From Sandaracinus amylolyticus (GTDB taxonomy: Bacteria > Myxococcota_A > Polyangia > Polyangiales > Sandaracinaceae), in the NCBI RefSeq assembly GCF_021631985.1, contig NZ_CP070225.1:9362001-9426000 (forward strand): a stretch of 64,000 nucleotides of DNA. The letters are read 5' to 3'. The position numbers and the translations under genes were made by a program. Below, in pieces: positions 14,856 through 63,543 of this stretch. The notes below the pieces were generated by a model. It was not told where the DNA came from. It searched no databases and saw only the letters and a program-made list of their open reading frames with translations. How positions within the stretch are numbered: position 1 is the first letter of the stretch; each line of letters begins with the position of its first letter.

Positions 14856-16034
14856 ATGCTCGGCGCGCGGAATGTGCGGACGAACGTCGTCGCGTGGGGA
14901 TGGTGCTTGTGCGTGGCGCTCGCGGCGTGTGGCGCGCCGCGGGTGCGCGAGGAGCGCGTGGTGCCGGTGACGCTGCGCGAGGAGGGCTGGCTCCCCGAGA
15001 ACCGCGCGCGCATCGAGCGCGTGATCGCGACGCTCGGCGCGCGCGAGGGACGGCGCGTCGCGGTGTTCGACTGGGACAACACGATGATGCGCGGGGACAT
15101 CGGCGACCTGGTGCTCGCGCATCTGATCGAGCGCGGTGCGATCGCGGAGGGCGCGATCCCGCGAGACGACGCGATGCTCGGCGAGGCAGCGCACGCGGCG
15201 CTCGCGGGCGCGCGCGATGCGACGGAGCGCGGGCGCGTGGTGGCGCACCTCGCGTGGCGCGGCACGACGCCCGAGGGAGAGCCCGCGTTCACGGTGCCGA
15301 TGGCGCCGTTCTACCGATCGACGTACGGCGTGATCGCGCAGGTGCTCGCGGCGGGGCGCACCGACGACGCGCTGCGCGCGATCGCGCGCGAGGCGTTCGC
15401 GGCGGCGAGCGCTGCGCCGGTCGGCACGCGCGAGGTGATCGGCGGGGTCGAGGTCGAGCGCTTCGCGCGGCTGCACGTGCCGATGATCGAGCTCGCGCGC
15501 GCGCTCGAGTCGGTCGGCGTCGAGGTGTGGATCGTCAGCGCGTCGCCCGAGCCGATCGTCCAGGCGCTCGCGGAGATCGCGGGGCTCGCTCCGGCGCGCG
15601 TGATCGGCGTGCGGATGCAGCACGACGGATCGGGGCGCGGCACCGCGCGCTTCGAGGCGTGCGGTGAGGGCGCGCTCGCGACGCCGGTGATGACGTGGCT
15701 CGAGGGCAAGCGCTGCTGGATCAACCGCGCGATCTTCGACGTGCCCGCGGCGCGGCAGCGCATGCGGCAGGAGGACCCGGCGCTGCGTCCGGTCCTCGTC
15801 GCGGGTGACAGCGACGGAGACCTCGCGATGCTGCAGGACGCGACCGAGCTGCGCATCGTGCTCGATCGACAGAACGTGCGCTTGATGTGCAACGCGCTCG
15901 CGTCGGGCTGGCTGGTGCAGCCGCTCTTCGTCGATCCTCCGCCGCCGCGCGAGACGCCCTATCCGTGCAGCACCCACGAGGACGCGCTGGGGCGCGTGGT
16001 GGACGCGGACGGGCGCGCGATCGGCGATCGTTAG
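14856..16034 (+). CDS. Lipoprotein HAD-superfamily phosphatase (phosphoserine-phosphatase-like)
   Basis: A 392-residue protein. A lipoprotein signal ends in ALAAC. The HAD core is clear: motif I is VFDWDNT (DxDxT-type nucleophile), motif II is WIVSAS, and motif IV is AGDSDGDLAML. The large cap insertion between motifs I and II matches the phosphoserine-phosphatase-like branch. It should hydrolyse a phosphomonoester at the cell envelope; the substrate is unknown. Start choice is soft: ATG 14826, ATG 14856 and GTG 14874 are all in frame. I prefer 14856, which gives a normal-length signal. Its stop TAG overlaps the stop of the convergent gene at 16031. Confidence 0.9.
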   Translation: MLGARNVRTNVVAWGWCLCVALAACGAPRVREERVVPVTLREEGWLPENRARIERVIATLGAREGRRVAVFDWDNTMMRGDIGDLVLAHLIERGAIAEGAIPRDDAMLGEAAHAALAGARDATERGRVVAHLAWRGTTPEGEPAFTVPMAPFYRSTYGVIAQVLAAGRTDDALRAIAREAFAAASAAPVGTREVIGGVEVERFARLHVPMIELARALESVGVEVWIVSASPEPIVQALAEIAGLAPARVIGVRMQHDGSGRGTARFEACGEGALATPVMTWLEGKRCWINRAIFDVPAARQRMRQEDPALRPVLVAGDSDGDLAMLQDATELRIVLDRQNVRLMCNALASGWLVQPLFVDPPPPRETPYPCSTHEDALGRVVDADGRAIGDR

Positions 16035-16822
16035 AAGCGACCTTCGATCGCGATCCCGTTCGGGCGGATCGCGACGTGGGTCTCGCTGCTGCTGCTCGAG
16101 GTGAGATCGATGATCACGAGCGTCGCGGCGCCGGCCGCGAGCACGCCCGCGGTCACGTAGAGCGCGGTCGCCACGGTGGCCTCGGTGCGCGCCTGCTCGA
16201 GCCGATCGTGCTCGGGGCTCCCGCGCACGATCACCGGCTGATCGCGCAGGTCGTCGACGGTGGACTGCGCGTCGAGCGCGAGCACGACGCCCGCGATGGT
16301 CGCGCCGGCCGCGAGCCCTGCGGCACCCACGCCGATCCAGAGCAGCGTGTGATCGGGCTCGGCCGCCGGCGGCGGCGCGACCGGCGGAGGATCGCTCGGC
16401 GGCGGCGTGATCTCGGGCTCGGGCTCGGGCGCCTCGGGCTCGGGCGCCGGCTCGGGCTGGGGCGCGTCGCCTTCGCTCAGCACGAGCTCGCGCTCGATCT
16501 CCGCGACGCGCTGCTCGGCGAACGCGCGGAAGCGACCGGTGTCGTCGTCGCGCGCGCAGGTGCGGTAGGCGCGCGCGGCCTGCGCGCGGTGCTCGGGGCC
16601 CCAGCGATCGTAGGTGAGCGCGAGGTTGCACATCGTCGTGACGCGCGGCGCGAGGCGATACGACTCGCGGAACGCAGCGGCGGCGGCCTCGTGATCGCCC
16701 TCGCGCAGGCGCTCGACGCCGCGATCGAAGAGCGAGGTGGAGGGATCGCTCGGAGCGTCCTGCGCACGGGCGAGCGCTGGAATCGCGAGGAGGACGAGCG
16801 CGACGAGGGCGTGGATGCGCAT
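16031..16822 (-). CDS. Secreted TPR protein with C-terminal two-helix membrane module
   Basis: A 263-residue protein. Signal peptide 1-20 (ALARA cleavage); TPR-like helices about 28-110 (LFDRGVERLREGDHEAAAAAFRESYRLAP); Pro/Glu-rich linker 120-155; two membrane helices at about 159-183 and 216-240. Between the helices sits HDRLEQARTEATVAT, and the protein ends in a strand ...IEGRF. The same C-terminal module occurs in the protein at 59718. The ATG shares one base with the stop of the upstream kinase gene (TGATG), so kinase and envelope protein are coupled. It is probably anchored in the membrane with the TPR part outside the cytoplasm. The exact role is unknown; a kinase partner or substrate is a reasonable guess. 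Confidence 0.8.
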   Translation of the reverse strand: MRIHALVALVLLAIPALARAQDAPSDPSTSLFDRGVERLREGDHEAAAAAFRESYRLAPRVTTMCNLALTYDRWGPEHRAQAARAYRTCARDDDTGRFRAFAEQRVAEIERELVLSEGDAPQPEPAPEPEAPEPEPEITPPPSDPPPVAPPPAAEPDHTLLWIGVGAAGLAAGATIAGVVLALDAQSTVDDLRDQPVIVRGSPEHDRLEQARTEATVATALYVTAGVLAAGAATLVIIDLTSSSSSETHVAIRPNGIAIEGRF

Positions 16823-18171
16823 CACGGTGCGTGCTGCTCGATGATGTTGCCGTCCCACGACGCCGGCTCGCCCGTCGCGGGCTCGGTCGTGGGAGTGGTC
16901 TCGCGCGGAGCGCGGCCTCGCGCGCGCGGCGCTCGCTCGCGCGGCTCCTCGGGCGTCGCGATCGCCGCCGGCGGCGGCTCGGGCGTCGGCTCGATCACCG
17001 GCTCGGGCGTCGGCTCGATCACCGGCGGCGGCGCCGGCGCGATCACCGGCTCGGGCGTGGCCACCGGCGCGGCTTGCTCGATCGTGCTCGGCGGCTCGCG
17101 TCGCATCAGCCACACGCTCGCGGCCCACGCGAGCACGCCTGCGAGCGCGAGCGCGATCCCGATCGCGATGATGCGCGCCTCGCGGTCGCGCGACGGCTTC
17201 ACCACCGTGCCCGAGGCCGGCGCGCTGCGGCTGTGGAGCTCGGGCGACGAGTCGACGCTCGGCGCGGTCTCGCGCGTCGCGAGCGACGAGCGAGACGCGC
17301 CCGAGGAGCGCCGCGCCAGTGCGCTCTCGAGCAGCTCGATCGCCTCGACCGCGCTCGCCGGACGCTCCTCGGGATCCTTCGCGAGCAGCTTCGCGAGCAC
17401 GCTGCTCGTGCTCCGCGGCGCGTCGTGGGTCGAGGGCACCGGCGCGTAGAGGATCTGGTGCATCAACGCCGCGGTCGACGGCGCCTCGAAGGGCAGCGCG
17501 CCCGCGAGCATCTCGTAGAGGATCACGCCGAGCGCCCAGAGGTCGACGCGCACCGTCGGGCGCTCGCCGTGGAACTGCTCGGGCGCCATGTAGGGCAGCG
17601 ATCCCACGATGCTGCGGCTCTCGGTGATCTTCGATCCGAAGCGCTCGTCGACGCCGGTCGCGAGCCCGAAGTCGAGCAACCGCACGCTCACCGGACCGCT
17701 CCGGCACACGCCGAGGTTGCTCGGCTTCACGTCGCGATGGACGATGCCGGCCGCGTGCACGTCCACCAGCGCCTCTGCGATCCCGATCGCCAGCTCGAGC
17801 GCGCGCTCGCGCGGCAGCGGCCCTTCGCGCGAGAGCAGCACGTCGAGCGGGGTGCCGTCGACGAGCTCCATCACGTAGAACGGACCGCGCCCGGGATCGA
17901 CACCGAAGTCGGTGATCTGCGGCACCCGCGGCGTGGTCACCTTCGCGAGGGCGCGCGCCTCGCGGCGGAAGCGCGCGTCGAGGGTCGCGTCCCAGCGGTC
18001 GGGGCGCACCAGCTTCAGCGCGAAGCGCTTCTCGAGCTCGACGTGCTCGACCTCGAGCACCTGGCCCATACCGCCCGCGCCGATCTCGCGCGTGACGCGA
18101 TAGCGCGCTGCGACGACGTCGCCGACGCGCACCGGGGCGAAGACGCTGTTCTCGAGCGCGTCCGACGACAT
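16822..18171 (-). CDS. Transmembrane Hanks-type Ser/Thr protein kinase
   Basis: A 449-residue protein. Kinase domain about 24-290: Gly-loop GAGGMGQV (31-38), Lys53 in FALKLV, catalytic loop HRDVKPSN with D147, DFGLA with D167, APEQ at 196-199, and a WALGVILYEML block. One membrane helix lies at about 334-356. Outside it is a Pro/Glu-rich tail with PEPVI repeats and no recognisable sensor fold. All residues needed for catalysis are present, so it should be active. It is the first gene of a two-gene unit with the TPR protein at 16031. A lipoprotein gene starts divergently within about 20-40 nt, so the promoter region is very short. Confidence 0.93.
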   Translation of the reverse strand: MSSDALENSVFAPVRVGDVVAARYRVTREIGAGGMGQVLEVEHVELEKRFALKLVRPDRWDATLDARFRREARALAKVTTPRVPQITDFGVDPGRGPFYVMELVDGTPLDVLLSREGPLPRERALELAIGIAEALVDVHAAGIVHRDVKPSNLGVCRSGPVSVRLLDFGLATGVDERFGSKITESRSIVGSLPYMAPEQFHGERPTVRVDLWALGVILYEMLAGALPFEAPSTAALMHQILYAPVPSTHDAPRSTSSVLAKLLAKDPEERPASAVEAIELLESALARRSSGASRSSLATRETAPSVDSSPELHSRSAPASGTVVKPSRDREARIIAIGIALALAGVLAWAASVWLMRREPPSTIEQAAPVATPEPVIAPAPPPVIEPTPEPVIEPTPEPPPAAIATPEEPRERAPRARGRAPRETTPTTEPATGEPASWDGNIIEQHAP

Positions 18172-18210
18172 CCGACTGCGCCGCGCAGGATAGCAGCGGT
18201 CGCTGTCGCG

Positions 18211-19572
18211 GTGCTGGCGACGATCGTGCTGGCGGGGTGCATCCCTGATTTTTCCGGGTTCACCATCGTCGACGACGAGGGCTCGGTCGACGCCGGGATG
18301 GACGCCGCCGCCGAGCTGGAGGACGGCGGCGAAGTCGACGCCGCGCCGGTCGACGGCGGCCCCGTCGACGCCAACGACCCTCCGCCGTCCGTGCTCGACA
18401 CCGCGTGTGTGACGCCGTGGGACGAGCTCGAGCCCCCGTTCCCCGAGGTGTGCACCCGACGCGTGAGCGAGCGGATCGGCGCGCCGTTCGAGATCGACGA
18501 CGTCGCGATCACCCGCGGCAGCGACGGTGTCGTCGTGATCGCGTACGACGCGTACGACGGGCCGGACCTGGCCGAGCTGCGCACCGTGCGCTTCCACGAG
18601 GACGCGCCCGAGACCGCCGCCGACGGCCCGGTGATCCGCCCGGTCGCGTCGATGGGCGAGTGGGTCGGCACGTCCGTCGCGCTCGCGACCCAGGGCGCCG
18701 ACATCCACCACTTCGCGTACTGGGTCCGCTCCGACCTGGGCCACGAGATCCAGCACCGCACGCTGCGCGGGAACATCCTCTCCGAACCGGATCACGTCGC
18801 GATCTCGGTCGGCGCGCGCGGCGCGGTCGACATCGAGATCGACGGCGCGGGGCTCCCGGTCGTCGCGTGGCACGACGACGACACCGGCCGCAACGCGGTG
18901 CGACGCGCGACCGGCGACGGCACGTGGGCGGTCGACGTGAACGTGCGGAGCGACGGCGATCCGCGGCTCGAGGGGGTCGGCGCGGTCGCGCTCGCGGCGG
19001 GCGCGGGCACGACCATGCACTACGCGTTTCAGTGGTGCGCCACGCTCGCGGTCTCCGCGCCCTCGTACTCGGTGTCGACGTCTGCCGCCTCGTGGGCCGT
19101 CGCGCGCACGCTCGACAACCCCGCGATCGACGAGCGCGCGTCGGGCGTGGGGGTCGACCTCGCGCTGCTCGGCGACGAGACGATCGTGGGCTACCTCGAC
19201 TGGGCCGCGCAGCGCGGCGAGGTGCGGCTCGCGCGCTTCACGGGCAGCGGCCCGATCGAGATCACCACGCTGATCGACGACCTCACGATCCTCGATCGCC
19301 CGGGCCGACATCCGATGGTCGTCGAGACCGACGCGTACGGCCTCCTGCACCTGCTCACTGCGGGCGTCGAAGGGCCCGAGACGCGGCTCGAGTACTGGCG
19401 GCAGGTGCGCCGCGGCGGCGAGCTCGAGTGGGTCGTCGACGTGCTCTCGCTGATCGGCGCGGTGCCCGAGCGCGTCCACGCCGACATGGTGATCGGCCCC
19501 GATCGACGGCCGCACGTCGTGTACTGGGATCCCTTCGTCGGCGCGGTCGTGTACGCGACGATCCAGCTCTGA
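18211..19572 (+). CDS. Lipoprotein, predicted beta-propeller-like surface protein
   Basis: A roughly 450-residue protein with a lipobox VLAGC, an Asp/Gly/Ala-rich linker (DDEGSVDAGMDAAAELEDGG), then strand repeats such as VVIAYDAYDG, PVVAWHDDDTG, TIVGYLDWAAQ and PHVVYWDPF. These resemble the WD-like strand repeats of secreted propellers. The start is unresolved: GTG 18211 is the only conventional codon near the signal but leaves just nine residues before the lipid Cys. The frame extends upstream as RRIAAVAVA, with ATA at 18190 as the next candidate. Function unknown; a surface-exposed binding protein is likely. It is divergent from the kinase gene at 18171. Confidence 0.75.
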   Translation: MLATIVLAGCIPDFSGFTIVDDEGSVDAGMDAAAELEDGGEVDAAPVDGGPVDANDPPPSVLDTACVTPWDELEPPFPEVCTRRVSERIGAPFEIDDVAITRGSDGVVVIAYDAYDGPDLAELRTVRFHEDAPETAADGPVIRPVASMGEWVGTSVALATQGADIHHFAYWVRSDLGHEIQHRTLRGNILSEPDHVAISVGARGAVDIEIDGAGLPVVAWHDDDTGRNAVRRATGDGTWAVDVNVRSDGDPRLEGVGAVALAAGAGTTMHYAFQWCATLAVSAPSYSVSTSAASWAVARTLDNPAIDERASGVGVDLALLGDETIVGYLDWAAQRGEVRLARFTGSGPIEITTLIDDLTILDRPGRHPMVVETDAYGLLHLLTAGVEGPETRLEYWRQVRRGGELEWVVDVLSLIGAVPERVHADMVIGPDRRPHVVYWDPFVGAVVYATIQL

Positions 19573-19625
19573 TCGTGCGGCGTGGTCCTTGACCAGCGCG
19601 CGCGCGCACACGAGGCTCGCGCGCG

Positions 19626-20783
19626 ATGGCAGCGGACGCGAAGACGAAATTCTCGATGCCGATCTGGGGCTGGATCCTGATCGCGGGCCTCGTGCTCGCG
19701 GGGATCCTCAAGGTCGTGCACGTGCCAGGGCTCGCGGGCGGCGCGCTCGAAGCGCTCGCGGGGCTCTGCTTGATCGCAGGCTCGTGCGAAGCGCTGATCA
19801 TGAGCGTCGAGGGCATGAGCGCCCTGCTCGGATGGAACCAGTTCGTCGGCGGCACGATCGCGGCGGTCGTCTCGAACGTGCCCGAGATCGCGCTGCTCGG
19901 GTTCTTCGTGGTCGACGACCCGACGATGGCGTTCGTGATCGGCCTGATGAGCGTCTACACGAACTCGATGGCGTTCGCGCTCTACGCGGTGATCATGCCG
20001 AAGGATCGCGGCACCGCGTCGATCCCGATGCCGATCGTGCGCGCGGGCACCGACCTCCTGAGCTTCGGCGGCGGCCTCTGCCTCGCGCTCGCGATCACGA
20101 TGATCGTGCTGCGCGAGTTCGGCTCGCCGATCGATCGCATCGGGGTGCCCGAGCTCTACTTCGTCGGCTTCGCGCTGATGGCGGTGTTCGGGACCTTCCT
20201 CGTCAGCCTGGTGCGCTACTTCGGTGCCGAGGAGAAGAAGGAAGGCGAGGCGCCGCCCAAGAAGGAACCGGAAGAGGCGCACCACGGCGTGCCCAAGACC
20301 TACGGCGGTGTCGCGGGCCTGCTCGTGCTCGGCGTGTTCGGATCGTTCCTCGGCGGCGAGTCGATGAGCGAGGTCGGCGACGCGATCGTCGCCGCGTTCC
20401 CCGATCTGTCGCGCATGGCGGTCGCGCTGATCCTCGCGATCATCGCGGGCGTCCCGACCTACGTCATCGTGCTCAACGCGCACTACAAGAAGCAGCCGCT
20501 GATCGCGCTCTCGAACACGTTCGGCGGGCTCACGCAGAACCTCTTCAACGTGATGGCGTTCTGCTGCTTGATGATCGCGTTCTTCAACACGATCGGCGTG
20601 CTCCACGACGAGACCGTGCCGATCACGATCCCGACGACGCTCGCGCTCGCGCTGATCTATCCGACCTACGCGATCCTCTCGCGTGCGATCGAGGACGACG
20701 GCAAGTTCAACTGGATCGAGATCGTGTCGTTGGTCGCGCTCTTCGGGCTCTTGATGTTCGTGCTCGTGCGCGACGGAGGGTGA
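19626..20783 (+). CDS. CaCA-superfamily cation exchanger-like membrane protein
   Basis: A 385-residue integral membrane protein with about ten helices in two halves. The first alpha-repeat-like segment is EALIMSVEGMSALLG then GGTIAAVVSNVPEIALLG, with the P-E pair of the ion-binding region. The second is SNTFGGLTQNLFNVMAF. A charged cytosolic loop (EEKKEGEAPPKKEPEEAHH) separates the halves. This is the CaCA (Na+/Ca2+ or H+/cation exchanger) layout. The motif wording differs from canonical ChaA or YrbG, so the ion is not assignable. A 5-nt gap separates it from the GST gene. Confidence 0.82.
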   Translation: MAADAKTKFSMPIWGWILIAGLVLAGILKVVHVPGLAGGALEALAGLCLIAGSCEALIMSVEGMSALLGWNQFVGGTIAAVVSNVPEIALLGFFVVDDPTMAFVIGLMSVYTNSMAFALYAVIMPKDRGTASIPMPIVRAGTDLLSFGGGLCLALAITMIVLREFGSPIDRIGVPELYFVGFALMAVFGTFLVSLVRYFGAEEKKEGEAPPKKEPEEAHHGVPKTYGGVAGLLVLGVFGSFLGGESMSEVGDAIVAAFPDLSRMAVALILAIIAGVPTYVIVLNAHYKKQPLIALSNTFGGLTQNLFNVMAFCCLMIAFFNTIGVLHDETVPITIPTTLALALIYPTYAILSRAIEDDGKFNWIEIVSLVALFGLLMFVLVRDGG

Positions 20784-20788
20784 GCGAG

Positions 20789-21400
20789 ATGCGGACGCTG
20801 GTGATCGGAGACAAGCGCTGGTCGTCGTGGAGCATGCGGCCCTGGCTCGCGCTGCGGCACGCGGGCATCGAGTTCGACGAGCACCTGATCCGGCTGCGCC
20901 GTCCCGACAGCAAGGAACGGATCGCCGCGGTCTCGCCGAGCGGGAAGGTGCCGCTCCTGATCGACGGCGATCTGACGATCTCGGACTCGCTCGCGATCTG
21001 CGAGTGGGCCGCGGAGCGTGTGCCCTCGCTGTGGCCGAGCGATGCGAGCGCGCGCGCGATCGCGCGGAGCGTGAGCGCGGAGATGCACTCGAGCTTCGTC
21101 GCGATGCGCACCGAGATGTCGATGGACGTCGAGCTGCGCACGAAGAAGGAGCTCTCGCGTGACGCGCGCGCCGACGTGGATCGTGTGATGACGATCTGGC
21201 GCGAGGCCCGCGTGAAATGGGGACAGGACGGTGACTTCCTGTTCGGCGCGTTCTCGATCGCCGACTGCTTCTACGCGCCGGTGGTCACGCGCTTCCGCAG
21301 CTACGGCGTCACGCTCGACGACACCGCGTCGCGTTACTCCGAGGCGATCTTCGCGCACCCCGAGGTGCGCGCGTGGTGTGACGGTGTCGAGCGCGACTGA
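20789..21400 (+). CDS. Glutathione S-transferase family protein
   Basis: A 203-residue protein. The N-terminal thioredoxin-like domain starts TLVIGDKRWSSWSMRPWLAL, where the S-x-W-S region supplies the thiol-activating Ser. SPSGKVPLLIDGDLTISDSLAICEWAAE is the cis-Pro and gamma-Glu-binding segment. The C-terminal helical domain has GAFSIADCFYAPVVTRF, the N-capping S/T-x-x-D motif. Length is normal for the family. It likely conjugates glutathione to electrophiles or isomerises small molecules. Its 3' end overlaps the SnoaL-like gene by 17 nt. Confidence 0.92.
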   Translation: MRTLVIGDKRWSSWSMRPWLALRHAGIEFDEHLIRLRRPDSKERIAAVSPSGKVPLLIDGDLTISDSLAICEWAAERVPSLWPSDASARAIARSVSAEMHSSFVAMRTEMSMDVELRTKKELSRDARADVDRVMTIWREARVKWGQDGDFLFGAFSIADCFYAPVVTRFRSYGVTLDDTASRYSEAIFAHPEVRAWCDGVERD

Positions 21401-21725
21401 GCAGCTCGCGCGTCGCTGGCTCGACGCGTTCAACGCGCGCGACGTCGACGCGATGGCCGCGCTCTACGCGGACGATGCGACCCACACGTCGCCGAAGATC
21501 CGCGAGGGGCGCATCGTGGGACGCGACGCGCTGCGCGCGTGGTGGCGCGGCGCGCTCGAGCGCACACCGAGCCTGCGCTACGAGCTCGTCGGGATCGCCG
21601 CGAGCGAGGACCGCGTCGCGCTCGAGTACGTGCGCCACGTCGACGGCGAGCCCGCGATGTCGGTGTGCAACGTGTTCGACGTGGCGGATGGACGCTTCGT
21701 CGCGTCGCGCGTCTATCACGGCTGA
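21384..21725 (+). CDS. SnoaL/NTF2-like protein
   Basis: A 113-residue protein from GTG 21384, the start that best fits the fold. A first helix LARRWLDAFNARDVDAMAALYADDATHTSP leads into strands RIVGRDALRAWWRG, LRYELVGIAASEDRVALEYVRHV and ARVYHG-like end strands. This is the cone-shaped NTF2-like fold of SnoaL proteins, which can be small cyclases, hydrolases or binding proteins. No catalytic dyad can be set from sequence alone. It overlaps the GST stop region by 17 nt, so the two are co-expressed. Confidence 0.8.
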   Translation: MSSATEQLARRWLDAFNARDVDAMAALYADDATHTSPKIREGRIVGRDALRAWWRGALERTPSLRYELVGIAASEDRVALEYVRHVDGEPAMSVCNVFDVADGRFVASRVYHG

Positions 21726-21745
21726 GAAGCAGCGGGGCGGAGCGC

Positions 21746-22600
21746 ATGGACGTGATCATCGCAGTCACGCTCGCGCTCGTTTCGTTCGGATGGGGCGCGT
21801 GGACTGGCAGCGAGCTCGGGCGTGCGCTCGCACATTCGCTCGTGCATCACCGTCCCGTTCCCTCTCGCGCGTGGAAGGGCGCGCTCGTGCGGCTGGTGCC
21901 GATCGTGGTCGCCTTCCTGGCGGGACCGGTGTGGCTCCTCGCGTTGTCGTTCCTCGGCGTCTTGGCGATCGTGCTCGCGTGCGCCGTCTCGTACCGCCAG
22001 ACGACGAGGCGCGAGCGCGTCGTACGCGCGCTCGACGACGGGCTCGACGCGGCGATCTGGATCATCGACAGCTACGATCCCCGCACGAGGCGCACGAGGG
22101 CGGGGTGGTGGATCGAGCTCGCGGCGCGCTTCGTGCGCGAAGGTCGCTCGGACGAGATCGACGAGCGGCTGCAGCAGAGCGCGACATCCATCCGGCCGCG
22201 TCGGCTCCGCGCGGCGCTCACCGCCACCCGAGCTCGCATCGCGCTGCACGAAGCTCGCATCGCCCAGGCACGCGTCCTGATCGCCGATGCGCGGGCGCTC
22301 CATCGCGAAGCCGCGTTCCGCGAGCACTGCGACCAGCTCGAGGTCCGCGCGCGGCTCGTCGAGGGCGACGCCGAAGGTGCGCTCGCGGCCTGCGTGTCGC
22401 GCCTCGGGATCGGGTGGCGGATCCTCGAGCTTCACGCCCGGGCAGCTCAGGGAGCACACGGCGACGTCCGCGCTGCACTGCGCGCGGGCGTCACCGAGCA
22501 CGGGCAGGAATTCCTCGACCAGATCGCGGACGACGATCTTGCGGGCTCGCCCATCGCTCGTGCGATGCTCCGTGAGCGGGGGAGCGCATACCGGGATTGA
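21746..22600 (+). CDS. Membrane-anchored protein with TPR-like C-terminal region
   Basis: A 284-residue protein. Residues about 3-20 and 50-85 are hydrophobic (IIAVTLALVSFGWGAW; IVVAFLAGPVWLLALSFLGVLAIVLACAV), giving two or three membrane helices. The rest is cytoplasm-like, rich in Arg/Ala helices whose ARIAQARVLIADARALHREAAFREH spacing resembles TPR or Sel1-type pairs. I recognise no named family. Its TGA overlaps the TTG start of the NUDIX gene (TTGA), so translation is coupled. The ATG at 21746 follows a G-rich SD-like stretch (GCGGGGCGGAG). Confidence 0.7.
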   Translation: MDVIIAVTLALVSFGWGAWTGSELGRALAHSLVHHRPVPSRAWKGALVRLVPIVVAFLAGPVWLLALSFLGVLAIVLACAVSYRQTTRRERVVRALDDGLDAAIWIIDSYDPRTRRTRAGWWIELAARFVREGRSDEIDERLQQSATSIRPRRLRAALTATRARIALHEARIAQARVLIADARALHREAAFREHCDQLEVRARLVEGDAEGALAACVSRLGIGWRILELHARAAQGAHGDVRAALRAGVTEHGQEFLDQIADDDLAGSPIARAMLRERGSAYRD

Positions 22601-53956: not shown

Positions 53957-53976
53957 GCTCCGAAGGCCGGGCGAAT

Positions 53977-54028
53977 GCGAGCGTCGGGGCCGCGGCGAAG
54001 CGTGCGCCCACCGCTTCCCGACGCTCGC
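53977..54028. terminator. 12-bp inverted repeat between converging genes
   Basis: GCGAGCGTCGGG (53977-53988) is complementary to CCCGACGCTCGC (54017-54028), between the convergent genes ending at 53956 and 54045. A bidirectional terminator is the simplest reading. Confidence 0.6.
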
Positions 54029-54044
54029 GCCCTGTCGTGTCTCT

Positions 54045-54815: not shown

Positions 54816-54987
54816 GTCCTCCGTGAGAACGGTTTGTCTCGGGGACGCGCATGATAGCGGCGGATCGCATCACGTGTATCTTTCGCCCCGTGACCGCGTT
54901 CCTCCGTGACCTGCCCGGGCAGCCGCCCCACGACGCTCCGCACGTGCGCGGTCACGGCATCTGCGGGAAGGTGTCGAGGCTCTCGTC

Positions 54988-56796: not shown

Positions 56797-57050
56797 TGCG
56801 CGTGACGGTGCTCTACTTCGCGGGCGCGCGGGATCTCGCAGGACGTGGCGAAGAGCGCGTCGACGTGCCCGACGACGTGCGCACCGTGGGCGCGCTCGCC
56901 GCGTGGATCGAGCAGCGCGTGCCCGCGCTCGCCGGGCGCGGCGCGTCGCTGCGATGGGCGCGCAACGAGGCGTTCGCCTCGATGCACGACGCGATCGAGG
57001 AGGACGACGTGATCGCGATCATCCCGCCGGTCGCAGGAGGCTGCGCGTGA
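56796..57050 (+). CDS. moaD: Molybdopterin synthase small subunit-like protein, atypical C-terminus
   Basis: An 84-residue ubiquitin-fold protein: VTVLYFAGARDLAGRGEERVDVP, a middle ARNEAFAS segment and DDVIAIIPPVAGG, the MoaD thiocarboxylate tail. MoaD normally ends exactly at Gly-Gly, where MoeB adenylates it so that it can carry sulfur for molybdopterin. Here Cys-Ala follow the Gly-Gly, so the protein cannot be thiocarboxylated as it stands without removal of the last two residues. It shares one base with the upstream gene (TGATG) and overlaps moaE (GTGA), which secures its place in the pathway. Confidence 0.88.
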   Translation: MRVTVLYFAGARDLAGRGEERVDVPDDVRTVGALAAWIEQRVPALAGRGASLRWARNEAFASMHDAIEEDDVIAIIPPVAGGCA

Positions 57051-57505
57051 GCCGGGTGTCGATCGAGCGCGTCGCGCTGAGCACCGAGCGCGTCGCCGCG
57101 GAGGTGCGCCGGCCGGGCGCGGGCGCGATCGTCGTGTTCGAGGGCACGGTGCGCGACGTCAACGACGGGCGCGCGGTGACGTTGCTCGAGTACGAAGCGT
57201 ACGAGGCGATGGCGCTCGCCGAGATGCAGCGCATCGTCGAGGAGCTCGAGCGCGAGATCCCCGACGCGCGCCTCGCCGCGGCCCACCGCATCGGTTCGCT
57301 GCACGTCGGCGACGTCGCGGTCGTGTGCGCGGCGAGCGCGCCTCATCGCGGCGAAGCCTTCCACGCGTGCCGCGCGCTGATCGATCGCATCAAGGAACGC
57401 GTGCCGATCTGGAAGCGCGAGCACGGCCCCGACGGTGCGTACTGGGTCGGCTGGGAAGACGCGCGCTGCTCGCCCGATCACGGCCACGGACACCACCACG
57501 ACTGA
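57047..57505 (+). CDS. moaE: Molybdopterin synthase catalytic subunit
   Basis: A 152-residue MoaE protein. GAIVVFEGTVRDVNDGRAVTLLEYEAYEAMALAEMQRI is the family core, and the active-site Lys is in ERVPIWKREH. It pairs with MoaD to turn precursor Z into molybdopterin. The C-terminus is His-rich (SPDHGHGHHHD), a natural metal-binding-like tail absent from most MoaE. The GTG start overlaps the moaD stop in GTGA. Confidence 0.95.
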   Translation: MSRVSIERVALSTERVAAEVRRPGAGAIVVFEGTVRDVNDGRAVTLLEYEAYEAMALAEMQRIVEELEREIPDARLAAAHRIGSLHVGDVAVVCAASAPHRGEAFHACRALIDRIKERVPIWKREHGPDGAYWVGWEDARCSPDHGHGHHHD

Positions 57506-57565
57506 TTGCGCCTGGGGCGGATTCATCGGCCGTCGCTGCAAACTCGCTTGCGCCCCCACCTGCGG

Positions 57566-58081
57566 ATGGTGTACGACCAGACGACCGGAATGGAGCCGAT
57601 CGTCGCCTCGCGTGCCGCCGTCGACAACCGCCTGATCGACGACGTGTTTCCAGTCCTCGTGAGCGTCGCGCCGATGCGCTACGACGACCGCACCGTCGAT
57701 CGCATGGCCGAGCTCTTCGAGCGCTACTTCCAGCGCGGTCAGCGCTACGCGGTCGTCAGCGTCACGCCCAAGGACGCCGAGGGCCCCGACGCGCGGCAGC
57801 GCAAGCGCATCGCCGACTGGGCGAGCTCGCCGCGCGTGCGCGACAAGTCGCGCGAGCTCTGCGTCGGCTCGGCGACGCTCGTGAAGGATGCGATCGCGCG
57901 CGGCGCGCTCACCGCGATCCTCTGGGTCTGGAAGCCCGCGAACCCGCACCACGTCACGACGTCGGTCGACGACGCGCTCGACTGGTGCCTCGCGAAGCTC
58001 GTCGCCGAGAAGATCGAGATGCCGCTCGGCCTCGAGACCACGCGCAGCCGCACGCTCTCGATCATCCGCAAGCACCTCTGA
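57566..58081 (+). CDS. Protein of unknown function, STAS-like fold possible
   Basis: A 171-residue protein from ATG 57566 (ATG 57590 is an alternative). The body alternates strands and helices: VFPVLVSVAPMRYDDRTVDRMAELFERYF, RYAVVSVTPKD, a DARQRKRIADWASSPRVRD helix, CVGSATLVKDAIARGALTAILWVWKP and a DDALDWCLAKLVAEK end. The pattern suggests a small alpha/beta domain like STAS or SEC14-type modules, reminiscent of the protein at 2123. No catalytic motif is seen. It lies between moaE and a Ser/Thr kinase gene in the same direction. Confidence 0.65.
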   Translation: MVYDQTTGMEPIVASRAAVDNRLIDDVFPVLVSVAPMRYDDRTVDRMAELFERYFQRGQRYAVVSVTPKDAEGPDARQRKRIADWASSPRVRDKSRELCVGSATLVKDAIARGALTAILWVWKPANPHHVTTSVDDALDWCLAKLVAEKIEMPLGLETTRSRTLSIIRKHL

Positions 58082-58134
58082 TCGTTCCCGCGCGCGGTCT
58101 TGCGGCCGCGGCGCGGAACCTATGTGCGCGTTCC

Positions 58135-59556
58135 ATGCGTGTGCTGCCGGTCGTGCCTCAGCTGCCGACACGCATCGGCGATCTGCGGGTGATCGCCCGT
58201 CTCGGGTGCGGTGGGATGGCCGAGGTCTTCCTCGCGCGGCGGACGGGGATCGAGGGCTTCGACCGACGCGTCGTGGTGAAGCGCATGCTGCCGCACCTCG
58301 CGCACGACCACGGGCTCTCGCTCGCGATGCTCGACGAGGGCCGCGTCCTCGCGCGGCTGAGCCATCCGAACGTCGTCGCGGTCGAGGAGATCGGCCACGA
58401 CGAGAGCGCCTACTTCCTCGTGATGGAGTACCTCCGCGGCGCGGCGCTCTCGGCGATCGAGCGCGAGCTGCGGGCCCACGGGCGTCGCGTCGACCCCGCG
58501 ATCGCCGCCCACGTCGTCGCCGAGGTCGCGGCCGGTCTCCACGCCGCGCACGAGCTCACCGACGCCAGCGGTCGCGCGCTCGAGCTCGTCCATCGCGACG
58601 TCACGCCGCACAACGTGTTCCTCACGCTCCACGGCGAGGTGAAGCTGCTCGACTTCGGCATCGCACACTTCGCCGATCGCTCCTCGCGCACCAACACCGG
58701 CGTCGCGAAGGGCAAGTTCGCGTACATGGCGCCCGAGCAGTTCGAGGGCGCGCCGCCCGATCGCCGCGTCGACGTGTTCGCGCTCGGCGTGGTGCTGCAC
58801 GAGATGCTGACCGGACAGCGTCTCTTCGCGCGATCGACCGAGGCCGAGATCGTTCGCGCGGTCGTCGACGAGGAGGTGCCGCGACCCTCCGAGATCGCCC
58901 CCGACGCGCGCATCCCGCGCGCGCTCGAGGACGTGTGCATGCGGGCCCTCGCGCGCGATCCCGACGAGCGCTTCGAGACCGCGGCCGCGATCCGCGCGGT
59001 GCTGCGCGCCGAGCTGCGCTCGCTCGATCCCTCGCAGGACGTGCGCGACCGCATCGCCGAGCTCGCGCGCACCTACGCCGCCGAGGCCGGCGATCGGCAG
59101 GCGATGGTGCGCGAGACCGCGACGCTGCCCGAGGTTCCGTGGACCGTGCGCGGCGGGGACGATCCGCCGCCATCGACACCACCGAAGAGCGATCCCGAGA
59201 CGACGCGCGCGCCCTTGCGGCCGACCCGTGCGCTGCAGCGCGTGCCGTGGATCCTCACGGGCGGGCTGGTGATCACGATGGCCGCGATGCTCGCGAATTC
59301 CGCGCCCCTCGTGCCGATCCCGACGGTCTCGAGCGGGCCCCCGCGCGTGCCGATCACGATCGAGAGCGTGCCGAGCGGCGCGCAGGTGCGGATCGGCGGA
59401 TTCGTGCGCGGAGCGACGCCGCTCAGGTTCGACGCGTCGCGCGAGACGGTGGCCATCTCGGTGACGCTCTCGCGCGACGGGTACGTGACGAGCGAGGCCG
59501 AGGTCGTGCCCGATCACGCCGTCTCGCTGCGGGTCCATCTCTCGCGCGCGCCGTGA
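58135..59556 (+). CDS. Membrane Ser/Thr kinase with C-terminal PEGA domain and HRDVT catalytic loop
   Basis: A 473-residue protein. Kinase domain about 14-280: Gly-loop GCGGMAEVF, Lys49 (VVVKRM), catalytic loop HRDVTPHN with D155, DFGIAHF with D173, and a MAPEQ block. The usual Lys two places after the catalytic Asp is Thr157; HRDVT/S-P-x-N loops recur in myxobacterial kinases and the other key residues are intact, so activity is plausible. A membrane helix at about 371-390 and then a PEGA-like domain ([28 protein letters not shown]) lie outside, where PEGA may bind wall or surface ligands. It opens a run of four genes to 63543. Confidence 0.9.
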
Positions 59557-59717
59557 TCGGTCGACGACATCCACCCACGTCTTTCGCATCCGTTCGATGT
59601 GATACTTTCGAGCGTGAACGTCGGGCGTCGGGAGCCGCTCGTCGGAACACGAGGGACTCGCGCGATCCGACCGCGACCCTCGCTCGGATGGTGCACGTAC
59701 CGACGAGGCTTGCCTGG

Positions 59718-60617
59718 ATGAAATGGGTCGTCTTTTCGCTCGTGATCGCGTTGCTCTCGCTCGCTCGACCTGCGCACGCGCAGGAGCTGCCGCGTGCGTC
59801 GCTGCTCCAGACGGGGCGCTCGGGTGGGATCGAGGAGGGCACGGCGCGCGCGATGGATCGCATGCTGCGCGAGCGCATCGACGCGCTGCACGTCGTCGAG
59901 GTGAGCGGCGCGGTGGTGCTCGATCTCGAGCAGGTGCAGCTGGCGTTCGGGTGCATGGGCGAGAGCGTTCCGTGCCTCGAGCAGGTGGCGCGCGAGCTCG
60001 ACGTGCAGGTGCTGGTGGTGCCCTCGCTCGATCGCGCGGGTGACGAGATCGTCGCGACGTTTCTGCGCTTCGACGTACGTGACGGCGCGCAGCAGCGCGT
60101 GGTGCGTCGCGTGGAGAGCGACGCCGCGCTGCTCCAGGAGGTCGAGCCGATGCTGCGCGAGCTCTTCGGTCTGCCGCCGCGCGCCGAGGGAGAGGGCACG
60201 CTCGTGGGCACGCCGGAGGGCGAGGTCGAGACCACGCCGATCGCGCCGGCGCGCGAGCCGGCGGGGATCTCGCCGTGGCCGATCGTCGTGATGAGCGTGG
60301 GCGCGCTCGCGCTGGTCGGCGGAGGCATCGCGGGCGCGATGTCGTCGGACGATGCGAGCGCGTTCCGTGGCGCCGATCCCAGCTCGCAGGAAGAAGCGGA
60401 CGAGGCGCACGATCGCCTGTCGCGCGCGGAGACCGAGGCGACCGCGGCGAACGTGCTCTTCGTGAGCGGCGGCGTGCTGCTCGCGGGCGGGCTCGCGTGG
60501 TTGCTCGCGGCGGGCCGCGAGGACGGGAGCTCGGTGTTCGTGCTCGCGCCGTACGCGGGACCGGAAGGTGGAGGCGTGGTGATGGCGGGTCGGTTCGCGC
60601 TCGGAGGAGGTCTCTGA
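59718..60617 (+). CDS. Secreted envelope protein with C-terminal two-helix membrane module
   Basis: A 299-residue protein from ATG 59718, chosen for the ideal signal peptide MKWVVFSLVIALLSLARPAHA. Residues 25-150 form a folded domain with LRERIDALHVVEVSGAVVLDL and QVLVVPSLDRAGDEIVATFLRFDV. These look like the N-terminal nucleotide-binding-like modules of TolB-type or CsgG-type envelope proteins, but no firm match. Two membrane helices follow at about 186-208 and 243-266. Between them HDRLSRAETEATAANVLFVSGGVL copies the module of the protein at 16031. The ATG of the next gene overlaps its stop (TGATG). Confidence 0.8.
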   Translation: MKWVVFSLVIALLSLARPAHAQELPRASLLQTGRSGGIEEGTARAMDRMLRERIDALHVVEVSGAVVLDLEQVQLAFGCMGESVPCLEQVARELDVQVLVVPSLDRAGDEIVATFLRFDVRDGAQQRVVRRVESDAALLQEVEPMLRELFGLPPRAEGEGTLVGTPEGEVETTPIAPAREPAGISPWPIVVMSVGALALVGGGIAGAMSSDDASAFRGADPSSQEEADEAHDRLSRAETEATAANVLFVSGGVLLAGGLAWLLAAGREDGSSVFVLAPYAGPEGGGVVMAGRFALGGGL

Positions 60618-61891
60618 TGCGCGCGCTGTGGATCGTGATGGCCGTGCTCGCGGTGGGATGCAGCGTCGATCGCGGCCAGCCCGAGTGCGCGTCGGAGAGC
60701 GACTGCGCGGCGGACGAGGAGTGCTACCGCGGGTTCTGCGTCGAGGCCCAAGCGGGGCTCGATGCGGGTGTCGATGCCGAGGTGGACTCCGGACCGCCGC
60801 CGGTGGTCTGCGAGACCGTGACCCAGGAGCCGTGCACCGTGTCGGGCGCGCAGGGGATCTGCGAGCCCGGCGTGTACGTCGAGTGCGAGGACGCGACGCG
60901 CGTGTGCCGCGCGCTCCTCGAGTCGATGGACGAGCTCTGCAACGGTGAGGACGACGACTGCGACGGCACCGTCGACGACGGGTTCGCGCCGTACGACAGC
61001 GTGCGGCACTGCGGCGGGTGCGGCGCGGAGTGCGCGGAAGGGTTCAACTGCTGTCCGGCACGCGGCGGCGCACCGGGCGAGCGCGTCTGCGTGAACCTCC
61101 GCGGCGGCAACGACGACTACTGCGGCGGCTGCAACACGGCGTGCGACGTCGCCGCCGGGCGGCGCTGCTGCGGCGATGCGGGCTGCATCGACGTGCTCTC
61201 GGACTCCGCGAACTGCGGTGTCTGCGGGCGCATCTGTGACGCGGGCACGGCCTGCTGCAACGGCGAGTGCGTCGCGCGCGAGTCCGACCCTGATCACTGC
61301 GGCGCGTGCGGGAACGAGTGCGCGACGGGCGATCAGTGCTGTCGCGGTGAGTGCGCGGATCCCGAGTCGTCGATCTGTGGCTCGTGCACCGAGGACTGCG
61401 CGGCGAGCGGTCGTGCGTGCTGCAGCGGGAGCTGCGTCGACACGCAGACCGATCGCAACGCGTGCGGCGCGTGCGGCGTGGTGTGCGGCGACGGCGAGCT
61501 CTGTTGCGGCGGCGACTGCGTGCCCGAGAACGCGCCGACGAGCTGCGGCGCGTGCGGCGTGGTGTGCGGCGACGACCAGCTCTGCTGCGGCAATCGCTGC
61601 GTCGACGAGAACACCGCGAATTGCGGCGCGTGCGGCACGACGTGCGCGCCGGGCCAGGTGTGCTGCGGCGCCGGCGGCTGCGCGAGCCTCCAGACCGATC
61701 CCGCGAACTGCGGTGATTGCGGCAACTCGTGCCCGGTCGCGACGCCGGAGTGCAGCGCGGGGCACTGCTGTCCGACGGGGTTCACCTGGTGCGGCAGCGA
61801 GTGCGTCAACCTGATGACGAATCGGCGCAACTGCGGTGAGTGCGGGCGCGGATGCCTGCTCACCGCGTGCAACGACGGAGCGTGCCTGTGA
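60617..61891 (+). CDS. Cys-rich secreted lipoprotein with one MopE motif
   Basis: A 424-residue lipoprotein (AVGC lipobox). One MopE-type motif (CNGEDDDCDGTVDDG) precedes a long run of Cys modules of about 35-45 residues: C-CxG-C-V, CGACGNEC, CCRGEC, CGACGVVCGDGELCC and others. Many units hold a CC pair and C-x-x-C. The set looks like serial small disulfide domains. It sits between a PEGA kinase/envelope protein pair and a second kinase, all with short overlaps, so it may be the outside partner of that unit. Metal binding is likely from the Asp/Cys pattern but is not proven. Confidence 0.85.
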   Translation: MRALWIVMAVLAVGCSVDRGQPECASESDCAADEECYRGFCVEAQAGLDAGVDAEVDSGPPPVVCETVTQEPCTVSGAQGICEPGVYVECEDATRVCRALLESMDELCNGEDDDCDGTVDDGFAPYDSVRHCGGCGAECAEGFNCCPARGGAPGERVCVNLRGGNDDYCGGCNTACDVAAGRRCCGDAGCIDVLSDSANCGVCGRICDAGTACCNGECVARESDPDHCGACGNECATGDQCCRGECADPESSICGSCTEDCAASGRACCSGSCVDTQTDRNACGACGVVCGDGELCCGGDCVPENAPTSCGACGVVCGDDQLCCGNRCVDENTANCGACGTTCAPGQVCCGAGGCASLQTDPANCGDCGNSCPVATPECSAGHCCPTGFTWCGSECVNLMTNRRNCGECGRGCLLTACNDGACL

Positions 61892-63543
61892 GAGACGCCG
61901 CCGCGGAAGAGCACGAGGAGGACGACGAGGAGGATCTCGGCGAGAACGATCCCGCGATCGCGCTGATCGGGCGCACCGTCGCGGGGCGTTATCGCATCAC
62001 GAGCGTGCTCGGCCGCGGCGGCATGGGCGTGGTCTACGCGGGCGTGCACCTCGAGCTCGAGCGCGACGTCGCGATCAAGGTGCTCCCCGGCGTCTACGCG
62101 CGCAGCGCGGAGGCGATGAAGCGCTTCGAGCGCGAGGCGCGCACGGCGAGCCGTATCTCGCACCCGAACGTCGTCACGATCTTCGACTTCGGTCGCCTCG
62201 ACAGCGGCGAGCCCTACCTCGTGATGGAGCGCCTCACCGGGCGCGACCTCGACATGGTGCTCATCGAGAAGCGGCGCCTCGATCCGCGCGAGCTCGTGAA
62301 GCTGCTCGCGCAGATCGGTCAGGCGCTCGACGCGATGCACGCGCAGGACGTGGTGCACCGCGACCTCAAGCCGTCGAACGTGTTCTATGCGGCCGACGGT
62401 ACGGTGAAGCTCGGCGACTTCGGGCTCGCCGCGCTCGCGACGAGCAAGGGCGAGCGTCTCACCGAGCACGGCACCGTCGTCGGGACCGCGGAGTACATGG
62501 CGCCCGAGGCGGCGCGCGGCGCGCTCGTCGATGCGCGCGGCGACGTGTACTCGCTCGCGGCGATGGCGTACGAGCTCTTGTGCGGCGCGCTGCCGTTCCA
62601 CGGACAGCCGGTGCAGGTGCTCGTCGACAAGGTGAGCCAGCCCGCGCCCTCGATGCTCAAGGCGTCGGGCCTGCGCTTCTCGGAAGAGATCGAGCGCGTG
62701 ATCGCGCGCTCGCTCGATCGACGTCCCGCCGCGCGACACACGAGCGCGGGCGAGTTCGTGCGCGAGCTGACGGCCGCCGTCGAAGCGGCGCCCGCTGCGG
62801 TGCAGGAGCGCGCGGTGCCGGCGTCCGAGCCGCGCGTGCGCGGTGAGTCCACCGAGGTCGTCCCCCCGCCGCAGCGACGCCGTGGTGCGTGGGTCGTCGC
62901 GGCGCTGCTCGTCGTGCTGATCGGCCTCGGCTTCGGCGTGTGGAGCGTCGCCGGTGGAGGCGCGGAGACGGCCGCCGCGAGCACCACCGTCGTCGTCGTT
63001 CCGCCGGTCGCGCCGCTGGTGCCGGGGCCCGAGGTCGCGGTGGTCGCGCCGACTCCGGTCGCCGCGCCGCCCGCGGAGCCGAGCGAGCCGGTGATCGAGG
63101 CACCCGCGCCGAGCGTGCCCGCCGCGCGCCCGACCACGCGTCGCACCACGACCACGGCCACGACGAGCGCGCCCGAGGCGGTCGCCGCGACCACGAGCGC
63201 GCCCGAGCGCATCGCGCCGGTCGAGACCGCGCCGCCGGTTCGTGTTGCCCCTCCGCCCGAGGCGCCGCCTCGCGAGGACGGGGCCGCGCGCGCCGCCGAG
63301 CTCGTGCGCGAGGCACAACGCGCGCTGCTGCGCGGTGAGGTCCCGCGCGCGCGAGATCTCTATCGCGAGGCCACCGGCGCGGCGCCGCGGGATGGTGCCG
63401 CGTGGCGCGGGCTCGGCCTGGCGAGCGAGCGCATGGGCCTCACGCCGGAGGCGATCCAGGCCTACGAGCGCTACCTCCGCATCGCGCCCAGCGCGGGCGA
63501 TGCCGACGCGATCCGCGAGCGCATCGCCCGCCTCCGAGGCTGA
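61888..63543 (+). CDS. Membrane Ser/Thr kinase with Pro-rich and TPR-like extracytoplasmic region
   Basis: A 551-residue protein from GTG 61888 (GTGA overlap). An acidic N-terminus (EEHEEDDEED) leads into the kinase domain about 30-300: GRGGMGVVY, Lys64, HRDLKPSN with D159, GDFGLAA with D177 and a MAPEAA block. The membrane helix at about 334-353 (GAWVVAALLVVLIGLGFGVW) is followed by long Thr/Pro/Ala linkers and a C-terminal TPR pair (LVREAQRALLRGEVPRARDLYREATG; LGLASERMGLTPEAIQAYERYLRIAP). All catalytic residues are present. It closes the run that begins with the PEGA kinase at 58135. Confidence 0.92.
   Translation: MRDAAAEEHEEDDEEDLGENDPAIALIGRTVAGRYRITSVLGRGGMGVVYAGVHLELERDVAIKVLPGVYARSAEAMKRFEREARTASRISHPNVVTIFDFGRLDSGEPYLVMERLTGRDLDMVLIEKRRLDPRELVKLLAQIGQALDAMHAQDVVHRDLKPSNVFYAADGTVKLGDFGLAALATSKGERLTEHGTVVGTAEYMAPEAARGALVDARGDVYSLAAMAYELLCGALPFHGQPVQVLVDKVSQPAPSMLKASGLRFSEEIERVIARSLDRRPAARHTSAGEFVRELTAAVEAAPAAVQERAVPASEPRVRGESTEVVPPPQRRRGAWVVAALLVVLIGLGFGVWSVAGGGAETAAASTTVVVVPPVAPLVPGPEVAVVAPTPVAAPPAEPSEPVIEAPAPSVPAARPTTRRTTTTATTSAPEAVAATTSAPERIAPVETAPPVRVAPPPEAPPREDGAARAAELVREAQRALLRGEVPRARDLYREATGAAPRDGAAWRGLGLASERMGLTPEAIQAYERYLRIAPSAGDADAIRERIARLRG

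Follow-up and report, generated by a model that had tools for sequence, protein, structure and literature searches.

A 64,000-nt stretch of the Sandaracinus amylolyticus genome (GCF_021631985.1, NZ_CP070225.1, positions 9,362,001–9,426,000 of the forward strand; termed the window) contains two genes whose products carry the same C-terminal membrane module, i.e. two transmembrane (TM) helices joined by a short loop and followed by a beta-hairpin. The module recurs in dozens of places in this genome and widely in the Myxococcota, often with a Hanks-type Ser/Thr kinase gene immediately upstream (position −1) and a lipoprotein gene immediately downstream (position +1). The N-terminal peptide of the paired lipoprotein co-varies in sequence with the membrane hairpin. 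This arrangement suggests an undescribed link between the cell surface and internal signals. With a probability of about 0.5, these proteins form a large family of exported adaptors, with the module as their membrane part, that bring together a lipoprotein, the periplasmic head and, at many of the loci, a kinase.

The two loci in the window comprise the following features:

16031..16822, minus strand: module protein 1 (P0003), 263 amino acids (aa); signal peptide, TPR head, Pro/Glu linker and hairpin module, ending in ...AIEGRF
16031..16348, minus strand: hairpin module of protein 1, approximately residues 159–263 plus stop codon; two TM helices around an acidic loop without Cys, then a beta-hairpin with a terminal Phe
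16822..18171, minus strand: Hanks-type Ser/Thr kinase directly upstream of module gene 1 (Pkinase 3.4e-42)
18211..19572, plus strand: divergent lipoprotein beyond the locus 1 kinase; post-Cys peptide CIPDFSGFTIVDD, followed by an Asp-rich linker
58135..59556, plus strand: Hanks-type kinase with a C-terminal PEGA domain (Pkinase 4e-38, PEGA 4.1e-07)
59718..60617, plus strand: module protein 2 (P0002), 299 aa; signal peptide, TolB-N/LpoB-like head and hairpin module
60276..60617, plus strand: hairpin module of protein 2, residue 187 to the stop codon; the tail runs past GRF to ...ALGGGL
60617..61891, plus strand: Cys-rich lipoprotein with three Stig1 stretches (L082; Stig1 4.4e-29); post-Cys peptide CSVDRGQPECASESDC
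61888..63543, plus strand: another Hanks-type kinase, the second in this run, with TPR at its C-terminus (Pkinase 4e-49, TPR_16 1.2e-08)

The start of module gene 1 overlaps the end of its kinase gene (16822–18171; one TM segment, as judged by eye) by 1 nt. Module gene 2 lies between kinase genes 58135–59556 and 61888–63543, and it overlaps by 1 nt the gene 60617–61891, which encodes the paired lipoprotein of locus 2. All three kinases carry the Pfam Pkinase domain, and the earlier note on this DNA was right to place each module protein beside a membrane Hanks kinase, with a 1-nt overlap at locus 1 and in the same gene run at locus 2. Promoters and terminators were looked for at locus 2 and none was found. 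Gene calls are those of a hexamer script written for this analysis, which is not a standard caller.

The note had also reported that both proteins end in helix-loop-helix and a final GRF, with nearly the same text at the end of the loop. This is borne out: the loop-end sequences are HDRLEQARTEATVATALYVTAGVLAAG and HDRLSRAETEATAANVLFVSGGVLLAG, and a full-length BLASTP comparison of P0003 with P0002 shows the C-terminal module as the only significant region (39.3 bits, E = 3e-8, 23 of 63 positions identical). The AlphaFold models of the two proteins (built from 59 family members in one case and 8 in the other) share the order head, helix, short loop, helix, two-stranded beta-hairpin. In the P0003 model the helices of the TPR head span residues 27–118, the module helices are at residues 159–193 and 203–242, and the strands are at 247–253 and 256–262. 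The corresponding positions in the P0002 model are 187–217 and 224–265 for the helices and 274–281 and 284–292 for the strands. Confidence in the module, as block means, is moderate for P0003 (60–88) and low for P0002 (48–68). The HDRL/TEAT text itself is not a family hallmark; the consensus of an 18-row alignment at this site is LAxxADVLxxxG. The two window proteins are not mutual closest relatives, as P0002 matches a paralogue elsewhere in the genome at 2.6e-11, compared with 6.7e-7 between the window proteins.

The module does not correspond to an annotated domain in the libraries searched, a possibility that the note had raised against its own proposal. In neither window protein does any Pfam or NCBIfam model score at or above its cut-off, and the 18 modules alone gave scattered weak matches to Pfam (best 0.0029). 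A profile search of the PDB with the module yielded nothing usable; the best match was entry sc-CC-6-95, with an E-value of 0.049. The first module helix contains 22.5% Gly (69 proteins), vs. 12% in kinase TM helices, a composition that might promote close packing of helices or oligomer formation.

The loci were all selected by a profile built from 18 modules, tail included (A1); within them, a profile cut before the tail was used for the Phe, Cys and further-genome counts. At E ≤ 4e-4 there are at least 34 module places in the S. amylolyticus genome. When 37 relatives of the same genus, family and order are added, modules are present in 38 of 38 genomes at E ≤ 1e-6, with up to at least 41 per genome. 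A Myxococcota-wide profile search, which the note had proposed, gave modules in at least 150 of 236 sampled genomes. These genome counts are lower bounds, with no more than 19 candidates per genome scored in the phylum sample and no more than 122 in the set of 38. A single-protein scan for named relatives beyond the genome set gave none. For module statistics 129 of 130 profile matches were kept, forming 103 clusters. Two of the genomes (G000 and G001) belong to the same genus, and cluster-level counts are therefore given beside raw counts. Neighbour counts omit modules without a gene call (17 of 129 at first, 11 of 129 after retrained calling); 86 of the 103 clusters had a gene call. In two genomes fetched later (G005 and G022), matches whose end lay over 90 residues short of the C-terminus were excluded.

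The heads are varied, as the note had it, and its description of completely different N-termini is correct for the window pair (TPR vs. a TolB-N/LpoB/PelC-like head), yet most of the family carries TPR. In an alignment of 59 proteins (A2; both window proteins and 57 of 63 listed proteins of 190–340 aa), TPR_2 is found in 52 (E ≤ 0.01) and PEGA in 6. The P0002 head has a TolB-N/LpoB/PelC-like fold (Foldseek best E = 1.5e-5, 4q6l). All 13 of its PDB matches with E ≤ 0.001 are LpoB, PelC/PelBC, GNA1162, CT253 or TolB, with TM-scores by target of 0.22–0.57 and head pLDDT blocks of 69–93. Relatives of P0002 occur in 8 of the 38 genomes, its own included.

The tails of modules with a TolB-N-like head (L243–L251 and window 59718–60617) extend beyond the usual Phe, e.g. 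GRFALGGGL, GTFPGGGL, SGSLPEIR and SGHWPAGSL, and in five inspected cases (the window, L118, L137, L146 and L247) the next gene encodes a Cys-rich lipoprotein with a similar start. One protein of the S. amylolyticus genome (L007, C1:6612465) has, as judged by eye, a TolB-N-like head, then a PEGA-like stretch, then a module whose loop contains Cys and is unusually long. Four TPR proteins of the same genome (L033, L034, L042 and L044) show by eye a single C-terminal TM helix, the second helix being absent, and two of these (L033 and L034) still end in Phe. They are possibly shortened relatives of the module. At L260 (G005:C27) two module genes 2.8 kb apart have an identical loop and tail, which looks like a recent tandem duplication.

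Kinase enrichment beside the modules is real, though many loci have no kinase next door; the lack of enrichment that the note had said would refute its proposal is not what is seen. Of the 34 modules in the S. amylolyticus genome, 10 have a listed kinase within 2.5 kb, where 2.2 are expected (p = 1e-4; the kinase list is the best 150 of 253 candidates, of which 147 on C1 were used). In gene-called neighbourhoods a kinase occupies position −1 in 17 of 73 cases, compared with 10 of 466 at offsets 3–6 on both sides and 15 of 343 random-locus genes. With one representative per cluster, the kinase is at −1 in 27 of 86, vs. 1–4 of 55–76 at offsets 3–4. The background consists of 20 random loci, at least three of which hold a module gene themselves (L166, L169 and L170), so that the background estimate is conservative. 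Kinases within 2.5 kb in a set of wider loci lie mostly upstream (19 of 22). No other constant upstream partner appeared: 33 proteins were scanned from the 45 distinct same-strand −1 genes that do not encode a kinase, and each Pfam family was confined to 3 of them at most.

The note's central proposal, a conserved module that connects varied heads to kinases, therefore holds as to the recurrent module, the varied heads and the enrichment, but the kinase is adjacent at only part of the loci (17/77 in the family to which S. amylolyticus belongs, 20/41 in other families; 15/21 in G022). Among modules of the S. amylolyticus family, a lipoprotein directly downstream is the more frequent neighbour (+1 in 46 of 77), a second partner that had been missed.

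A same-strand lipoprotein is found at +1 in 56 of 112 cases by the relaxed form of the lipobox rule used for lipoprotein calls (39 of 112 by the stricter form), against 50 of 343 background genes (Fisher 3e-13; this test is not strand-matched, the strand-matched background being 33 of 319). Directly downstream of other exported genes a lipoprotein is present in 14 of 80 cases. The overlap with the module gene is exactly 1 nt in 27 of the 56 pairs and 4 nt in 4. The lipoprotein bodies vary: MopE (7), Stig1 (6), Peripla_BP_6 (4), and chitinase, RCC1, kelch, Laminin-G and FG-GAP types were found in 50 scanned proteins (49 of 86 distinct same-strand +1 genes and the 18211 protein; some of these fail the lipobox rule).

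The paired lipoproteins have in common a tendency in the residues after the lipidated Cys: C-[ST]-[LAV]-[VDLI]-[LTVF]-[DSGN]-[FGD]-[DGS]-x-[FYH]. Other lipoproteins begin most often with C-G (34%). A position matrix separates paired from other lipoproteins with a cross-validated area under the curve (AUC) of 0.844, where label shuffles give a mean of 0.495 and a maximum of 0.615. The threshold of the all-data matrix is passed by 4 of 205 other lipoproteins, all of them in module loci, and by 0 of 45 in random loci. When applied to the two later-fetched genomes, the matrix gives an AUC of 0.81 (21 vs. 48 lipoproteins, p = 2.3e-5), with 7 of 21 paired lipoproteins passing vs. 1 of 48 others.

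In 44 non-redundant pairs the similarity of the TM hairpins tracks the similarity of lipoprotein residues 1–16 (r = 0.304, p = 0.002, which is the floor of 500 shuffles; r = 0.237 with a gapped score) and most strongly that of residues 2–8 (r = 0.320). The correlation is also seen among paralogues of a single genus (19 pairs, r = 0.251, p = 0.008) and of a single genome (11 pairs, 0.397, p = 0.006). It was replicated in G005, which was fetched afterwards (16 pairs, 0.232, p = 0.006; residues 2–8, 0.291, p = 0.001). For residues 2–8 it is present in other genera as well (14 pairs, 0.317, p = 0.006). In the controls, i.e. hairpin vs. lipoprotein body, hairpin vs. lipoprotein signal peptide, and lipoprotein N-terminus vs. 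its own body, no significant correlation was found in any set (p ≥ 0.18). Joint duplication alone should bring the lipoprotein body along, and the co-variation is thus read as a sign of recognition: it suggests that hairpin and lipoprotein would be in physical contact.

Pairing and motif bear as well on a related explanation, in which the hairpin protein is an escort or surface-display factor that moves its cognate lipoprotein to the outer surface or keeps it there, the kinase having only a regulatory role at some loci. The tight downstream pairing with 1-nt overlaps, the address-like post-Cys motif and the exchangeable bodies are all consistent with it. Excerpts of PMC3222651 report that in M. 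xanthus residue +7 after the Cys affects lipoprotein location, and that at least 11 matrix lipoproteins follow a targeting route which was called unknown in 2011. However, half of the gene-called modules have no same-strand lipoprotein at +1 while kinases are strongly enriched, and no transport domain was seen. Escort is a somewhat unlikely alternative and the best placed of those considered; it shares its topology with the adaptor reading, and the odds of the two overlap.

The head is read as exported: a putative signal cleavage site, Ala20 and Gln21, is conserved in at least 90% of the 59 aligned proteins. All 129 modules have either no or two Cys residues in the loop, as do 41 of 42 further modules (together 170 of 171), and the spacing of the two varies. 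The same is true of tail Cys residues (170 of 171, the single exception being among the 42 further modules). Head stretches, by contrast, have odd Cys counts in 28 of 129.

The charge pattern distinguishes the loop from a cytosolic one. The positive-inside rule holds for 47 kinases (K+R 23% in the cytosolic flank vs. 7.6% in the periplasmic flank), whose TM flanks carry a net charge per 12 residues of +2.06 and −0.51, respectively. At the two loop ends of 103 cluster representatives the corresponding values are −1.34 and −0.81. Cys-less loops (49, including those of both window proteins) have a whole-loop net charge of −3.8 and are positive in 2 of 49 only. Loop ends again lie below the cytosolic kinase flank in the two further genomes (8 and 18 kinases). 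An inner-membrane hairpin with a cytosolic loop would be expected to show a positive-inside bias at the loop, and no such bias was found. Both ends and the loop look extracytoplasmic, a pattern of residues that would fit an outer-membrane hairpin and not an inner-membrane one.

Docking of the loop to a kinase, as in the note's proposal, requires a cytosolic loop, and the lack of positive-inside bias and the paired Cys weigh against this. The same data bear on the explanation that the module protein is an inner-membrane receptor subunit, whose cytosolic loop serves as a docking site or phosphorylation substrate for the neighbouring kinase, with the lipoprotein as a periplasmic ligand-binding partner. 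The −1 kinases (in clusters, in other families and in G022), helices as hydrophobic as kinase TM segments and the near-neutral loops of G022 would agree with such a subunit. But the loop flanks lack the K/R of cytosolic flanks, the 49 Cys-less loops (35 of them kinase-linked) included; the loop Cys are paired; and the lipoprotein peptide with which the hairpin co-varies cannot lie in the cytosol. This explanation is unlikely, more so than escort. In the first set, modules with a Cys-less loop were more often kinase-linked than the others (35/49 vs. 16/63; by cluster 24/35 vs. 13/51). A Cys-less loop as a mark of the kinase link was dropped, the two further genomes giving 7/14 vs. 17/28 (the latter including one single-Cys loop).

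A C-terminal Phe is present in 109 of 129 modules and in 36 of 42 further ones (145 of 171), vs. 2.6% of 1125 other proteins, and Phe or Trp is the last residue in 59 of 69 matches to the profile that was cut before the tail. The usual tail pattern is h.h.G.[FWL], found in 65 of 103 cluster representatives vs. 3 of 343 background proteins. The module tail thus has the C-terminal aromatic residue of BAM clients, and 4 of 6 Omp85-family matches in the S. amylolyticus genome end in Phe too. Alternatively, the tail might be a binding site for a PDZ-type or beta-rich partner in the periplasm.

A generic membrane anchor spread by duplication, with neighbours reflecting the general clustering of envelope genes and not function, would account for the very large paralogue numbers and for lipoproteins being common near exported genes (14/80), but is very improbable given the position-specific enrichment (kinase −1, lipoprotein +1), a lipoprotein motif tied to module neighbours and the replicated co-variation.

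In the adaptor reading, the protein would be exported by way of its Sec signal peptide, and its head, usually TPR but in some cases PEGA or a TolB-N/LpoB-like fold, would remain in the periplasm. The two Gly/Ala-rich helices would most likely form a hairpin through the outer membrane, placing the short, mostly acidic and often two-Cys loop outside the cell, and the C-terminal beta-hairpin, usually ending in Phe, would be back in the periplasm. The downstream partner, where present, would be a lipoprotein with an interchangeable body, probably at the cell surface, and the hairpin would read the residues right after its lipidated Cys. At many loci the extracytoplasmic part of the upstream Hanks kinase would meet the periplasmic head, and the set could relay a surface or lipoprotein-occupancy signal to the kinase. 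Most likely, the module protein acts as an adaptor that connects a lipoprotein to a target in the periplasm or inner membrane, with sensing, display and escort all candidate roles. The fullest form of this reading is put forward tentatively, as possible though less likely than not: a new class of alpha-helical outer-membrane adaptors, with dozens of members in a genome, each of which would read, at the cell surface, the lipid-proximal peptide of the lipoprotein paired with it and signal through a TPR or LpoB-like head to a eukaryote-like kinase of the inner membrane. Myxobacteria would then have many three-part envelope-spanning receptors with exchangeable outer domains.

Several observations weigh against the adaptor reading. 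Locus 1 has no same-strand downstream lipoprotein, its +1 gene being convergent on the other strand; the 18211 lipoprotein, which has no Pfam match, is only a candidate partner of that locus, and it is below the motif threshold. The pairing is lineage-dependent, with 16 of 41 modules in other families paired, and in the later genomes a +1 lipoprotein accompanies 16 of 21 modules in G005 but 5 of 20 in G022. By plain distance in 60 wider loci the kinase enrichment is milder (within 2.5 kb at 22 of 61 vs. 12 of 61 at 2.5–5 kb). The hairpin correlation is weaker in other genera (0.181, p = 0.084). A correlation with the N-terminus of the lipoprotein is seen for the TPR head too (0.222, p = 0.006 in the 44 pairs; 0.267, p = 0.028 in other genera), with no correlation in G005 (0.007), and the co-variation could in part reflect joint duplication of gene pairs.

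Export and topology are affected as well. By simple rules a signal-like start (hydropathy) is present in only 49 of 75 gene calls and A-x-A in 64 of 80, in part because starts may be misplaced. In G022 the loops have a net charge close to zero (+0.38; 12 of 21 are positive) and are not acidic, though still below the cytosolic flank of that genome's own kinases (p = 2e-4 and 2e-5). The helices are about as hydrophobic as the inner-membrane TM segments of the kinases (mean Kyte-Doolittle hydropathy (KD) 2.07 and 2.28 vs. 2.34), and the translocon might therefore halt them in the inner membrane. The canonical BAM beta-signal, a C-terminal zxGxx[aromatic/hydrophobic]x[aromatic/hydrophobic] according to an excerpt of PMC10945584, is rejected for the module tail (3 of 103 fit; background 2 of 343), and insertion by BAM is thus only putative.

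Two further genes are present beside locus 1. A lipoprotein encoded at 14874–16034 (plus strand) is convergent with module gene 1, the ends overlapping by 4 nt; it has an FDWDNTMM... motif, and its motifs are presumably HAD-phosphatase-like. A Cys-rich secreted protein at 13627–14613 (minus strand) contains several copies of CxCPxxYAPVCGxDGxTYGNxCEAxCAG, repeats which we take to be Kazal-like.

TPR, Hanks kinases and lipoproteins are known, whereas the family of hairpin proteins, their pairing with lipoproteins and the post-Cys peptide that matches them are new relative to Pfam, NCBIfam, the PDB and the open-access literature searched, where, as judged by titles and the starts of abstracts, no description of the module or its gene set was found. 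A relay across the outer membrane would be categorically new. Myxobacteria have exceptional numbers of eukaryote-like kinases (excerpt of PMC2887360), and the adaptor reading, if true, would provide candidate outer partners for many of these. It would also provide a testable code, in the first post-Cys residues, for which adaptor handles which lipoprotein, and would add a helical-hairpin class to the outer-membrane proteins.

Four groups of known systems can be compared with the module. MYXO-CTERM/myxosortase is a Myxococcota-wide surface-anchoring system with dozens of clients per genome (from part of PMC11980579). Its signal consists of a Cys, one TM helix and an Arg-rich C-terminus, and is cleaved off (GC motif). 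The module is not of this type: it has two helices, K+R is 9% in the first 12 tail residues without an Arg cluster, and 109 of 129 end in Phe.

Precedents for helices that cross the outer membrane are the VirB10/TraF antenna, an alpha-helical outer-membrane segment, and the Wza pore (excerpt of PMC9601211). Unlike these, none of which matched in the PDB profile search, the module shows no sign of forming a pore or a channel for secretion.

Slam is an outer-membrane beta-barrel. Slam-dependent surface lipoproteins (part of PMC5449769) and the Bacteroidetes lipoprotein export signal (LES), located at +2 to +6 after the lipidated Cys with the form K-(D/E)2 or Q-A-(D/E)2 (part of PMC5080379), resemble the present case in that a membrane partner and/or a short post-Cys signal deals with the lipoprotein. 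They differ in that here there are many small helical-hairpin proteins, each beside a lipoprotein gene, and the module lipoproteins tend to C-[ST]-hydrophobic(3)-[DSGN]-... instead of the LES.

The last comparison is with LpoB and LpoP, the lipid-anchored outer-membrane activators of the penicillin-binding protein PBP1b. In these, an LpoB-like domain or TPR reaches across the periplasm from the outer membrane and controls an inner-membrane enzyme. The C-terminal domain of LpoB is the top Foldseek match of the P0002 head (4q6l, 1.5e-05), and the leading TPR matches of P0003 include LpoP (6w5q), albeit as a weak one (E = 0.026; no match of the P0003 model reached 0.001). The module differs in its anchor, which is a helical hairpin, and in its neighbours, which are kinases and lipoproteins. 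LpoB and LpoP show that both head folds can span the periplasm to act on an inner-membrane enzyme; next to the module genes, the enzyme encoded is often a Hanks kinase.

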